The position numbers were made by a program, and so were the translations under genes. A stretch of DNA of 40,222 nt from an uncultured Clostridia bacterium (GTDB lineage Bacteria > Bacillota > Clostridia > Oscillospirales > JAAYOS01). The stretch's first letter is position 1; each line of letters begins with the position of its first letter. The notes beneath the pieces are model-generated. The model saw only the letters and a list, made by a program, of their open reading frames with translations, ran no database searches and was not told the origin of the DNA. Shown here piece after piece: positions 4,520 through 38,779 of this stretch. The stretch covers positions 1-40,222 of the forward strand of contig CALXFK010000018.1 of the NCBI GenBank assembly GCA_944387575.1, read 5' to 3'.

Positions 4520-5209
4520 CTACTTCGGCACTACGTCCTTCTTGAGCACGCAGGTGTTCCGGTCAAAGTCTATCACTCCCTCGCTGCGCAGCCGGTTCAA
4601 CTGCGTGGACACCCCGCTCCGCTCAAGCGAAAGATACTCCGCAAGCTCCCGCTGGTTGAGGTCGAGCTTGAACGCCGGCCTCTTCTGCCGCTTCGCCTCC
4701 TTCGACAGAAAACAGAGCAGCTTCTCGCGCGTGTTGTGCTTGGACATTATCACCATCTTCTCGCTCTGCGCCATGTTCTTCTCCGCAAGTGCCATCACAA
4801 GGTTCTGCAAAAGCCGGTTGTGACACTCACACGCATTGCTGCACACCGAAAACATCCGCTTCACATCCAGCCACGCCACCTCGCACTCGCTTTCCGCATA
4901 CACCTGCATATCCCGAACCGGCTCGCTCATACACGCAAACGCCTCCGCAAACACCTCCCCCGGTCGCACCCTCGCCACCAGGGTCCGCCTGCCCCAGAAG
5001 TCCTCGTTTACCAGGTTCACCTCACCGCGGATGAGAAACGCGACCCCGTCCACCTTCTCCTCCTCGTGAAGGATGCACTCCCCCTTGCTGTACACCGTCA
5101 CGTATGCTCCCAGACATTCAAAGACCTTCTGCACGCTCTCCGGTGTCATCTGGTCGAACAGAGTGGAATTCTTTATCACGTGCATGTGCTTATATACATC
5201 CATTTTCAA
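4520..5209 (-). CDS. Crp/Fnr-family transcriptional regulator
   Basis: Its N-terminal cyclic-nucleotide-binding-type beta barrel (about residues 18-130) contains a GECILHEEEKVDGVAFLIRG segment. The C-terminal winged helix (about 150-225) has the recognition segment RELAEYLSLERSGVSTQL. Four cysteines (C111, C122, C126, C128 by approximate count) cluster near the dimer helix, which would allow redox or heme/NO sensing, but no family-specific sensor motif is clear. The start is taken as TTG at 5209 because GAAGGGGG lies 8 bases upstream; an ATG six bases later has poor spacing. It is divergent from a zinc-ribbon/ferredoxin pair that it probably controls. Confidence 0.88.
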   Translation of the reverse strand: MKMDVYKHMHVIKNSTLFDQMTPESVQKVFECLGAYVTVYSKGECILHEEEKVDGVAFLIRGEVNLVNEDFWGRRTLVARVRPGEVFAEAFACMSEPVRDMQVYAESECEVAWLDVKRMFSVCSNACECHNRLLQNLVMALAEKNMAQSEKMVIMSKHNTREKLLCFLSKEAKRQKRPAFKLDLNQRELAEYLSLERSGVSTQLNRLRSEGVIDFDRNTCVLKKDVVPK

Positions 5210-5602: not shown

Positions 5603-6287
5603 AATAGACCGGGATAAATGCGACGGCTGCGGGCTCTGCGTGAACGCCTGCCACGAGGGTGCGATAGCCCTCGTGGACGGAAAGGCACAACTCACCACCG
5701 AGCACTACTGCGACGGGCTCGGGGACTGCCTGCCCGCCTGTCCGCAGGGCGCAATCAGCTTTGTGGAGCGGGAGGCGGAGGCATACGACGCGGCGGCGGT
5801 CGCGGCGGCGCGTTCGCGCTCCGCCGGGACGGCGGACATCGCCGCGACCACACCGGGGGTACCGGGAACGCCGGATGCTTCGGATGTACAGGGTGTACCG
5901 GGTGCGGTGAGGAGCCGTCTTGAGCAGTGGCCGGTGCAGATAAAGCTTGCGCCGGTGGCGGCGCCGGTGTACCGCGCCGCGGAGCTTCTGATAGCGGCGG
6001 ACTGTTCGGCGTACACGCGGGCGAGTTTCCACGAGGACTTCATGCGTGGGCGGATAACGCTCATCGGGTGTCCGAAGCTGGACGCGGTGGACTACTCTGA
6101 GAAGCTCGCGGAGATGCTTCGGCAGGGCGGGTTTTCGTCGGTGACTGTGGTGCGCATGGAGGTGCCGTGCTGCGGCGGGCTCGAGTACGCGGTGGGGCGG
6201 GCTCGTGAGGCGAGCGGCTGCGACATACCCTGCCGCGTTGTGACCCTGTCGGTCGAGGGGGAGCTGCTGGAAAGCCGCGACATTTGA
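5577..6287 (+). CDS. 4Fe-4S ferredoxin-type protein with incomplete second cluster
   Basis: The N-terminus has one complete 4Fe-4S motif, CDGCGLCVNACHEG (C-x2-C-x2-C-x3-C, residues 15-25). The second, CDGLGDCLPACPQG, has Leu in place of the second Cys, so only three local ligands remain; this may hold a 3Fe cluster, use a distant Cys, or hold none. A linker rich in Ala, Pro and Gly (about 75-115) leads to a C-terminal domain with IGCPKLDAVDY and EVPCCGGLEYAV, which looks like a further metal or disulfide site. GGAGGAG precedes the ATG. It is the second gene of the divergent operon next to the Crp/Fnr gene and is probably an electron carrier in a stress or nitrogen-oxide reaction. Confidence 0.8.
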   Translation: MKIKRRIIEIDRDKCDGCGLCVNACHEGAIALVDGKAQLTTEHYCDGLGDCLPACPQGAISFVEREAEAYDAAAVAAARSRSAGTADIAATTPGVPGTPDASDVQGVPGAVRSRLEQWPVQIKLAPVAAPVYRAAELLIAADCSAYTRASFHEDFMRGRITLIGCPKLDAVDYSEKLAEMLRQGGFSSVTVVRMEVPCCGGLEYAVGRAREASGCDIPCRVVTLSVEGELLESRDI

Positions 6288-15545: not shown

Positions 15546-16129
15546 CAGAACACCTCCAGCCCGGAAAAGCCCATGAACGCGAGCGCGAGCAGCGCCGCGC
15601 TGACAAGCGCAATCGGGAATCCTTCAAAGCATTTCGGGTAGTCGGCAAATTGCAGCCGCTCGCGCACCGACGCGAACAGCAGCAGCGCAAGCGTGAACCC
15701 CACGCCGCCCATGAACCCGCTCACCGTAGCCTCGATGAAGGTGTACGACGCCTCGGCGTTGAGCAGTGCCACGCCGAGCACCGCGCAGTTGGTGGTGATG
15801 AGCGGGAGGTAGATGCCGAGCGCCGAGTAGAGCGAGGGCACCGACTTCTGCAAAAACATCTCCACGAGCTGAACGAGCGCCGCAATGACAAGTATGAACG
15901 CGACGGTCTGCATATATTCAAGCTCAAGCGGGCGCAGCAGCCACACGTCCACCATCCAGGTGAATATCGACGCGAGCGTCATCACGAATATGACCGCCAT
16001 CGACATTCCGAACGCGGTGTCCATCTTCTTGGAGACCCCGAGAAACGGGCATATGCCCATGAATTTGACAAGTATGAAGTTTTCGACGAGTATCGCGCCG
16101 AGCGAGATCTGGAGCAGCCGGATAAGCAT
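15545..16129 (-). CDS. rnfA: Rnf complex subunit A, membrane protein
   Basis: RnfA is one of the two homologous membrane subunits that form the ion and electron path of Rnf. The 194-aa protein has six predicted helices and conserved segments LVENFILVKFMGICPFLGVSK and YLPLITTNCAVLGVAL; the cysteines in GICPF and TNCAV hold the intramembrane 2Fe-2S centre shared with RnfE. Length and motifs match the family closely. Start and stop overlap its neighbours (TAATG upstream, TGATG downstream). Confidence 0.96.
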   Translation of the reverse strand: MLIRLLQISLGAILVENFILVKFMGICPFLGVSKKMDTAFGMSMAVIFVMTLASIFTWMVDVWLLRPLELEYMQTVAFILVIAALVQLVEMFLQKSVPSLYSALGIYLPLITTNCAVLGVALLNAEASYTFIEATVSGFMGGVGFTLALLLFASVRERLQFADYPKCFEGFPIALVSAALLALAFMGFSGLEVF

Positions 16130-36502: not shown

Positions 36503-36540
36503 CGCCGCGCCGCCCCGTATCGGGGCGGCGCGGCGCGTTT
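36503..36540 (+). terminator. Terminator of the solute-binding protein gene
   Basis: A very G+C-rich 15-bp perfect stem (36503-36517 with 36521-36535) with a TAT loop, then CGTTT. The short T-run makes it weaker than the stem suggests. Confidence 0.75.
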
Positions 36541-36565
36541 CCGGTTTGCGCTTGGGAAGAAACTG

Positions 36566-36760
36566 TGGTATAATAACCGCAAGGCGGTTATTATACTTTG
36601 ATTTAAGCCGTTTTTCTCGTCCCTTACGGGACAACCGAAAAACATGGCACATTATACCATTCCGGCTTTGCCGTCATGGTATAATAACCGCACAGCGGTT
36701 ATTATACTTTGATTTAAGCCGTTTTTCTCGTCCCTTACGGGACAACCGAAAAACATGGCA
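36566..36760. repeat. Duplicated 84-base double-hairpin element
   Basis: Copies at 36566-36649 and 36677-36760 are identical except for two bases, both in one 3-base loop (AAG versus ACA). Each copy has a perfect 13-bp hairpin (GTATAATAACCGC and its complement) and then a nested one (GTTTTTC/GAAAAAC outside, GTCCC/GGGAC inside). Between the copies, ATTATACCAT (36651-36660) and ATGGTATAAT (36676-36685) form a third hairpin with CGGC/GCCG inside. It looks like a REP/MITE-type dispersed repeat and contains no gene. Confidence 0.85.
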
Positions 36761-36799: not shown

Positions 36800-38779
36800 T
36801 TGGCATCTAAATATACAAACGAATCGATAACAACGCTGAAAGGCGCGGACCGGGTGCGAAAGCGTCCGGGGGTAATATTTGGCTCGGACGGGCTTGAGGG
36901 GTGCGAACATGCGGTGTTCGAGATACTCTCAAACTCCATCGACGAGGCGCGGGGCGGGCATGGCGACCGGATCATCGTGACCCGCTATGCCGACCGTTCG
37001 GTAGAGGTGGAGGACTTCGGGCGCGGGTGTCCGGTGGACTGGAACGCGCGCGAGAACCGTTTCAACTGGGAGCTTGTTTACTGCGAACTGTACGCGGGCG
37101 GAAAGTACGGCGCGGACGGGGACGGTTCGGGCTACGAGTTTTCGCTCGGTCTGAACGGGCTTGGTTCGTGCGCGACGCAGTATTCGTCGCGCTACATGGA
37201 CGTGACCGTCTGGCGGGACGGGTACAAGTATTCGCTGCACTTCGAGCGCGGCGAGATAGTGGGCGAGCTTCAGAAGGAGCCGTACAAGGGCAGGCGGACC
37301 GGGACGCTTACGCGGTGGCTGCCCGACCTCGACGTGTTCACCGACATCGACATTCCGGAGGAGTACTACCGCGACATACTCAAGCGGCAGGCGGTGGTAA
37401 ACTCGGGGGTGACCTTCGTGCTTCGGGTCGAGCGCGCGGACGGGAGCTTTGAGGAGAGCGAGTTCCGCTACGAGAACGGGATAGCGGACTACGTCGCGGA
37501 GATCGCGGGCGGGGATGCGCTCTCGAGCGTTTACGTCGCGGGCTGTGAGCGCACCGGGCGCGACCGGGAGGACAAGCCGGAGTACCGGGTGAAGATAAAC
37601 TGCGCGTTTGCGTTCTCGCGGCGGGTGAGCGTCATCGAGCACTACCACAACTCGTCCTTCCTCGAGCACGGCGGGTCGCCGGACAAGGCGATGCGGCTCG
37701 CGTTTGTCGCCGCGCTCGACGGGTACCTGCGCCGTGGCGGGAAGTACCAGAAGGGCGAGAGCAAGATAACCTTCGGCGACATCCAGGACTGCCTGATATT
37801 CGTCTCGAACAACTTCTCGACCCAGACCTCCTACGAAAACCAGACCAAGAAGGCGATAAACAACCGCTTCGTGCAGGAGGCAATGGACAAGTTCCTGCGC
37901 GAACAGATACAGGTCTACCTGATAGAGAACCCGGCGGACGCGGAGCGGATATGCGAGCAGGTGCTCGTCAACAAGCGGAGCCGCGAGACCGCCGAAAAGA
38001 CCCGCCTCAGCCTGAAAAAGAAGCTCTCCGGCGGGCTCGACATCTCGAACCGCGTTGCGAAGTTCGTCGACTGCCGCAGCCGCGACCCCGAGCGGCGCGA
38101 GCTGTACATCGTCGAGGGCGACTCGGCTCTCGGTTCGGTCAAGATGGGCAGGGACTCGGAGTTCCAGGCGATAATGCCGATACGCGGCAAGATCCTCAAC
38201 TGCCTCAAAGCCGACCTCCCCCGCATATTCAAAAGCGAGATAATAACCGACCTCATAAAGGTGCTCGGCTGCGGCGTCGAGGTGAGCCACCGCGGCGCAA
38301 AGGACCTCGCAACCTTCGAGCTCGACCAGCTCAGGTGGTCGAAAATAATCATCTGCACCGACGCCGACGTGGACGGCTACCAGATACGCACGCTCGTGCT
38401 CGCGATGCTCTACCGCCTCACCCCGACCCTTATCAACTGTGGGCGGGTATACATCGCAGAAAGCCCGCTCTACGAGATAACGAGCCGCGGAAAGACCTGG
38501 TTTGCGTACACCGACGCCGAAAAGGCAAAAATACTCGCGGAGCTCGGCGGCGCAAAGTACACCGTTCAGCGCTCGAAGGGTCTCGGCGAGAACGAGGCAG
38601 ACATGATGTGGCTGACCACGATGTCCCCTGAGACGCGCCGCCTTGTGCGGGTGGTCCCGGAGGACGTGGAGCGCACCGCCGCGATGTTCGATGTGCTGCT
38701 CGGCACCAACCTCACCGCGCGAAAGGAACTCATCGAAAACGAGGGTTACCGCTTCCTTGAACTCGCAGATATAAGCTGA
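36800..38779 (+). CDS. DNA topoisomerase IV/gyrase subunit B-type protein (GyrB/ParE paralogue)
   Basis: The ATPase subunit of a type IIA topoisomerase. In the 659-aa protein the GHKL ATPase domain has EILSNSIDEAR (the catalytic Glu and Mg-binding Asn), VEDFGRGCPVDW and GLNGLGSCATQYSS; the TOPRIM domain has EGDSALGS (about 440) and TDADVDGYQIRT (about 521), with PIRGKILNCLKA between. It is closest to the clostridial ParE-like paralogue. TTG 36800 is the preferred start: CGGAGG lies 6 bases upstream and the protein then begins MASKYTNESI, as in relatives. GTG 36770 has no ribosome site. The expected GyrA/ParC partner gene is not adjacent. Confidence 0.92.
   Translation: MASKYTNESITTLKGADRVRKRPGVIFGSDGLEGCEHAVFEILSNSIDEARGGHGDRIIVTRYADRSVEVEDFGRGCPVDWNARENRFNWELVYCELYAGGKYGADGDGSGYEFSLGLNGLGSCATQYSSRYMDVTVWRDGYKYSLHFERGEIVGELQKEPYKGRRTGTLTRWLPDLDVFTDIDIPEEYYRDILKRQAVVNSGVTFVLRVERADGSFEESEFRYENGIADYVAEIAGGDALSSVYVAGCERTGRDREDKPEYRVKINCAFAFSRRVSVIEHYHNSSFLEHGGSPDKAMRLAFVAALDGYLRRGGKYQKGESKITFGDIQDCLIFVSNNFSTQTSYENQTKKAINNRFVQEAMDKFLREQIQVYLIENPADAERICEQVLVNKRSRETAEKTRLSLKKKLSGGLDISNRVAKFVDCRSRDPERRELYIVEGDSALGSVKMGRDSEFQAIMPIRGKILNCLKADLPRIFKSEIITDLIKVLGCGVEVSHRGAKDLATFELDQLRWSKIIICTDADVDGYQIRTLVLAMLYRLTPTLINCGRVYIAESPLYEITSRGKTWFAYTDAEKAKILAELGGAKYTVQRSKGLGENEADMMWLTTMSPETRRLVRVVPEDVERTAAMFDVLLGTNLTARKELIENEGYRFLELADIS

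Follow-up and report, generated by a model that had tools for sequence, protein, structure and literature searches.

We describe a dispersed palindromic DNA element of gut Clostridia which very probably is non-autonomous and inserts into host promoters at the extended -10 box (TGnTATAAT), with a fixed orientation. Two copies lie in the stretch of DNA analysed here (the window, 40,222 nt from an uncultured Clostridia bacterium of the order Oscillospirales), at 36566–36649 and 36677–36760, each 84 nt long and 98% identical to the other. A preliminary description of this DNA had counted two mismatches between them, and these are indeed found (AAG versus ACA), both inside the 3-nt loop of the first stem, which in copy 1 is a perfect 13-bp pairing (36568–36580/36584–36596). 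The third hairpin said to bridge the copies is also there (36651–36685); it is part of a repeat unit with a period of 111 nt. The folding of the window element is very stable, with z-scores of -9.2 and -8.7 for the two strands, and none of 200 shuffles was equally stable.

Read along the forward strand, the locus begins with a candidate -35 hexamer, TTGCGC (36546–36551), located in host sequence outside the element and 17 nt before the TATAAT of copy 1. The left TGGTATAAT (36566–36574) forms both the host promoter's extended -10 box and the left edge of the element, and element-free relatives carry an extended -10 box before the same gene. Hairpin H1 of copy 1 follows (36568–36596, 13-bp stem, loop AAG), with a 3' arm that complements the -10 box and compensatory changes in relatives. 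Hairpin H2 (36607–36648) is the conserved core, formed by 3 bp, an AT bulge, 7 bp, a TC/AACC internal loop and 5 bp. Hairpin H3 (36651–36685) contains the complement of the -10 box (ATTATACCA), a core and a second TGGTATAAT (36677–36685), which closes unit 1 and opens unit 2, so linking the two. Copy 2 has its own H1 (36679–36707, loop ACA) and H2 (36718–36759) and stops there without H3, leaving the window with one and a half units. As had been noted, a topoisomerase gene lies just downstream (36800–38779); its TTG start at 36800, preceded by GGAGG, is 40 nt past copy 2, and the product is a GyrB/ParE-type subunit that scores under the curated cut-offs of the named models. On the other side, a GC-rich perfect 15-bp hairpin (36503–36535) stands behind the preceding gene; it is terminator-like, but the T run after it is short.

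The element is far from confined to this locus. The genome of origin (1.85 Mb in 109 contigs, 88% complete) holds 11 full copies and a truncated one, which rules out a purely local duplication, and a model of the H2 core recovers the same 11. The suggestion of a dispersed family of gut Clostridia therefore holds, and searching this genome and its relatives with the repeat unit returned many further copies with a conserved structure. The 120-nt unit matches 10 of 59 relatives at E<=1e-6, the genome of origin being among the 59. With a covariance model built from 22 sequences (R1), matches were obtained in at least 42 of 245 genomes of the order (E<=1e-3) and at least 10 of 196 genomes of the class (E<=1e-5), counts that are lower bounds with 14–21 candidates scored per genome. 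A second model, of H2 (R2), applied to 299 genomes sampled from the phylum, gave matches in 2, both from the same order as the window. A pattern scan of named genomes returned at least 119 stretches; the titles among 80 listed are Oscillospiraceae, Ruminococcaceae, Clostridiales/Eubacteriales and Clostridia, including Oscillibacter, Angelakisella and a cultured isolate, Pseudoflavonifractor capillosus An386a (locus L121). No copies were present in IMG/VR viral contigs (pattern scan), in a plasmid collection or in a phage collection, and carriage by phages or plasmids was rejected on these grounds. In the open-licence PMC literature we found no paper on an element nested in -10 boxes, or on such an element in Oscillospiraceae.

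Alignment of the copies with their flanks gives the order of the full unit as TGGTATAAT, H1 with the -10 box complement in its 3' arm, a linker, H2 and H3, the latter running from the -10 box complement through a core to TGGTATAAT. Consecutive units share nine bases, the end of one serving as the start of the next, and the resulting tandem arrays repeat about every 111 nt; an array in one relative has three units.

That the element sits in pre-existing promoters, nested in their -10 boxes, is well supported by sequence comparison. The host promoter's extended -10 box, TGnTATAAT, makes up the first nine bases of the element. To look beyond the element, 190 model hits were reduced to 163 by removing overlapping and identical copies; 118 of these have a readable -10 box and 60 nt upstream, and subtracting 14 tandem copies leaves 104 non-redundant ones. 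Across the 104, TRTGn precedes TATAAT, and TTG occurs exactly 17 nt upstream of the left TATAAT in 32, while other spacers between 10 and 25 nt give 0 to 8. This TTG is the one strong signal outside the element in the 60 nt upstream, and, since model R1 includes the -10 box but not the -35, it provides independent support for a real promoter. The -35 of copies in the genome of origin is frequently weak; over 10 arrays, at best 2 to 5 of the 6 bases of TTGACA are matched at 16–18 nt.

Of 91 copies with the TGnTATAAT left edge, 71 have a co-directional downstream gene, 3 an opposed one and 6 no called gene, while 11 are overlapped by a gene call; genes were called with a simple custom finder and subfamilies grouped by regular expressions. 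One locus counted as a '-' case, L240 (short locus L040), shows by eye an ATG frame with a ribosome-binding site on the opposite strand. Most downstream starts lie 15–110 nt from the element. The genes concerned in the genome of origin are unrelated (topoisomerase, lexA, pyrF, type II pantothenate kinase, mreB, a response regulator, a permease and others), for which reason a regulon was rejected. Between pyrF and lexA (L270, contig C48), two copies point apart and a degenerate third lies beside one of them. In the same genome, the copies on contigs C4 and C38 have a left flank of about 50 nt that is almost the same in both and lies where C4 begins, so that the link to mreB may be affected by an assembly break; a related H1, read by eye, is located upstream of an mreB-like frame in another genome (G003, L037).

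Orthologous sites without the element were compared as well. Of 24 genomes searched, 22 have the topoisomerase gene and, among the orthologue upstream regions in which the start motif was found, the element is present in the window only; several element-free orthologues show an extended -10 box in the corresponding position, such as TGTGGTATAATC in G001. In a stricter comparison, 27 arrays from three genomes (G004, G007, G009) were set against the near-complete sister genome G006, which is another species, so that some sites may have changed since. Both flanks fall on one G006 piece for 22 of the 27, with a gap of at most 60 nt in 13. Eleven of these 13 short gaps, representing 10 distinct sites, contain a single -10-like sequence, where the filled site has one per end: seven are exact TGnTATAAT, three have one mismatch and one has two. 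The random probability of a site with no more than one mismatch is 2.4e-4 per position. The other two short gaps contain a lone H3 hairpin. In the remaining nine comparisons the gap is 65–551 nt, and G006 has an array of its own at two loci, the three-copy one and L342. The lone H3 hairpins of G006, lacking H1 and H2 (L383 at 11674, L398 at 17131, and L390), look like deletion remnants or minimal forms.

Three sites are particularly clear. Locus L231 offers an empty and a filled state with tattgacaaaca-TGGTATAAT before and after; at L233 the left box has the host form TTGTATAAT and the right box the element form; and at L214 the two ends alike are of the host variant TGGTACAAT, whose complement lies inside, in the H3 arm. 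Both boxes are readable in 51 of the 163 copies, which are related and hence not independent counts; there, base n is the same in the left and right box in 38 (21.3 expected), so that the left box is not always independent of the right, and pairing between the H3 5' arm and the right box is seen in 47. With regard to a target-site duplication, the element is flanked by direct repeats of the -10 box, but in the 13 copies whose boxes differ the H3 arm agrees with the right box in 11 cases and with the left box in one. This pattern fits a left box that would be derived from the host and a right box derived from the element, combined with either a preference for matching targets or a correction at a later stage. 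The rule is poorly obeyed by L214, L274 and one copy in L133, and L214 is not predicted by its simple form.

The stems are conserved as DNA structure. In an alignment free of selection for pairing (A1), 95.0% of cells are paired over 41 base pairs, changes on both sides occur in 17 pairs (8.2 in shuffles), and covariation reaches 0.222 against 0.096 in shuffles, far over slid controls; the R2 alignment was picked by a detector that demands pairing, which inflates its covariation. RNA stems tolerate G-U pairs, not A-C. Over the 163 copies, which as related sequences are not independent, G-T and A-C mismatches number 41 and 47 in H1, 10 and 20 in H2, and 43 and 34 in H3, whereas the tRNA acceptor stems of G006 gave 17 and 1. 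Because A-C mismatches are as frequent as G-T ones, unlike in tRNA, the fold is kept as DNA and not as an RNA leader. The selection on structure proposed in the preliminary description is thus borne out by strong compensatory change, but at the level of DNA rather than RNA. The geometry of H2 is fixed: in 110 of 113 distinct cores, a 7-bp stem separates the AT bulge from the TC/AACC internal loop (the core detector demanded a stem of at least 6 bp), and such rigidity suggests recognition by a protein.

These observations bear on three other accounts of the element. A cis-regulatory RNA leader, that is, a riboswitch or attenuator in the 5' UTR, would share with it an upstream and co-directional position, about 35 nt before start codons, and a strong, covarying fold. 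We consider it highly improbable, given the mismatch spectrum just described, the unrelated downstream genes, the lack of the element at orthologous promoters and an H1 arm which, as the -10 box, would lie outside the transcript of that promoter; moreover, Rfam contains no known RNA family matching in the window, and none at E<=1 in seven loci. A protein operator, in which a regulator would bind H1 and H3 as inverted repeats covering the -10 box, agrees with a palindrome at that position and with symmetric conservation at the DNA level. Its arms nevertheless change sequence while staying complementary, the internal loop of H2 is non-palindromic with a fixed geometry, and the target genes are unrelated and not conserved between sister genomes, all of which make this account extremely improbable.

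The element could also be a mobile promoter, landing anywhere upstream of genes and retained for its own -10 boxes, as its two extended -10 boxes per unit and its strong placement upstream of genes might suggest. The -35 signal at 17 nt, however, belongs to the sequence beyond the element, and in sister genomes the exact insertion point is occupied by a -10 box; because of these two results we regard a mobile promoter as quite improbable.

For the reading that we favour, insertion into the -10 box of an existing promoter, the IS200/IS605 family provides a close parallel, a likeness of anatomy that does not establish membership. As IS608 is outlined in PMC5934647, its parts are a target at the left, a guide and a hairpin, followed by a right guide, a hairpin and a cleavage site; in IS200/IS605 the guide sequences GL and GR pair with the cleavage sites. 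The present element resembles these Y1/HUH elements, to the extent that PMC5934647 and PMC2817692 describe them, in being direction-specific, in keeping its target at the left edge, in lacking terminal inverted repeats, and in having subterminal imperfect hairpins with short complements of the putative cleavage sites beside them. A short target that stays at the left edge, with insertion on its 3' side, agrees with the single -10-like sequence in 11 of 13 short gaps and with left boxes that have a -35, and H1 and H3 hold -10 box complements that covary with the boxes, making them putative guides. It differs in being 111 nt long and gene-less, in having a promoter -10 box as target, in repeating that target at its right end, in complements of about 9 nt where those given for IS200/IS605 have 4, and in occurring in sister-genus (g5) genomes that have no Y1 gene.

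By analogy, we infer that the element moves as single-stranded DNA, and it may choose its target by pairing of the -10 box complements in the H1 3' arm and the H3 5' arm with the target strand, as GL and GR do. Insertion should leave transcription largely intact, because the left box keeps its -35 and the right box keeps its distance to the gene. The new right-hand -10 box would itself be open to insertion, and this would account for the tandem arrays and their 111-nt period.

Whether an enzyme of that family accompanies the element was addressed by searching for Y1 transposases (PF01797), which are present in 13 of 35 genomes searched. None was found in the five g5 genomes (G004, G006, G007, G008 and G009), where gaps in the metagenome-assembled genomes (MAGs) are possible, and the genome of origin has only a broken fragment with two stops (contig C38, 14195–14335). 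MAGs often miss repeated IS elements, which makes the absence of an enzyme weak evidence. IS110 and reverse transcriptase were absent from the ten genomes of the window's family that were searched; in a set of 17 genomes they occur in 4 and 6, respectively, none of these in that family. An autonomous partner was sought and rejected: end patterns gave no longer version with a gene between the ends in near-complete G006, and no H2 core lies within 1.5 kb of the Y1 genes found. A true IS200/IS605 member, namely a miniature derivative moved by a Y1 transposase missing from the assemblies, is in our view rather unlikely: the order of parts as outlined for IS608 (left target kept, guide by a subterminal imperfect hairpin, right guide, hairpin and cleavage site), the direction-specific insertion without terminal inverted repeats and the broken Y1 fragment speak for it, and against it stand the five g5 genomes without a Y1 gene, the Y1 genes without a neighbouring H2 core and the lack of a gene-bearing version in G006.

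The label REP/MITE, initially suggested as a possibility for the element, fits loosely. Like REPs and REPINs, as far as PMC2817692 and PMC3733652 characterise them, the element is a small imperfect palindrome dispersed between genes and often clustered. Unlike them, it has three hairpins, a direction locked to promoters and no linked RAYT, and alignment A1 contains neither the GTAG head described in PMC2817692 nor a similar one. A REP-type transposase, for which a check had been proposed along with that label, did not turn up in the copy-rich sister genomes, the genome of origin having only the Y1 fragment. The main text of PMC3733652, on REP and RAYT, makes no mention of Clostridia or Firmicutes. 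With MITEs and other small repeats (BOX, RUP, SPRITE, Correia, ERIC), as introduced in PMC3049150, the element shares being short, non-coding and strongly folded, and such repeats may influence neighbouring genes. It differs in that this subfamily inserts into a defined promoter element carried at both ends and lacks terminal inverted repeats, the right end having the same TGnTATAAT as the left in direct orientation.

The same H2 core is found with other ends. In a rumen subfamily the element ends in AAAGGAATGGTCATAA, with a start codon 0–3 nt later in 18 of 18 sense ends read by eye; a script gave 27 of 30, a count that includes antisense matches and one unrelated place. A Shine-Dalgarno-like motif precedes 15 of 15 copies, against 0–4 of 15 in windows lying wholly at least 10 nt upstream, in a flank analysis that left out L207 and had the H1 anchor misplaced in L102 and L194. 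Loci of this subfamily, with the 3' end directly before a start codon, include L102, L104, L130, L141, L166, L204 and others. An Oscillibacter-like subfamily (L163, L161, L111, L138, L144, L136 and L120) has inverted ends, TATTATTTCCGAA..TTCGGAAGTAATA, around the same core, and no bias of gene direction towards the element: of 25 copies, 5 are co-directional, 13 opposed and the rest without a clear call. Separately, three H2 cores adjoin tRNA-Lys genes or partial copies of them (L334 near 15677–15752, L328 near 5668–6093, and L159 at 4642–4674), flanked by an intact tRNA and, on the opposite side, by a partial tRNA copy.

Should the ends indeed determine the target, one conserved core combined with exchangeable ends that copy and complement expression signals could form a natural family of DNA-guided insertions, a tentative reading that we think rather unlikely. 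Each lineage would then target by long base pairing and rebuild at both ends its own signal, whether the -10 box, the Shine-Dalgarno sequence before start codons or possibly tRNA genes, and insertion beside essential genes would be harmless.

Mobile DNA usually damages its targets. An element that chooses the -10 box and leaves one on each side would be a clean case of harmless promoter targeting, essential genes included, and a natural example of DNA guides about nine bases long. The presence of the element in a cultured carrier, P. capillosus An386a, makes it testable, and it may alter the expression of many housekeeping genes in common gut bacteria.
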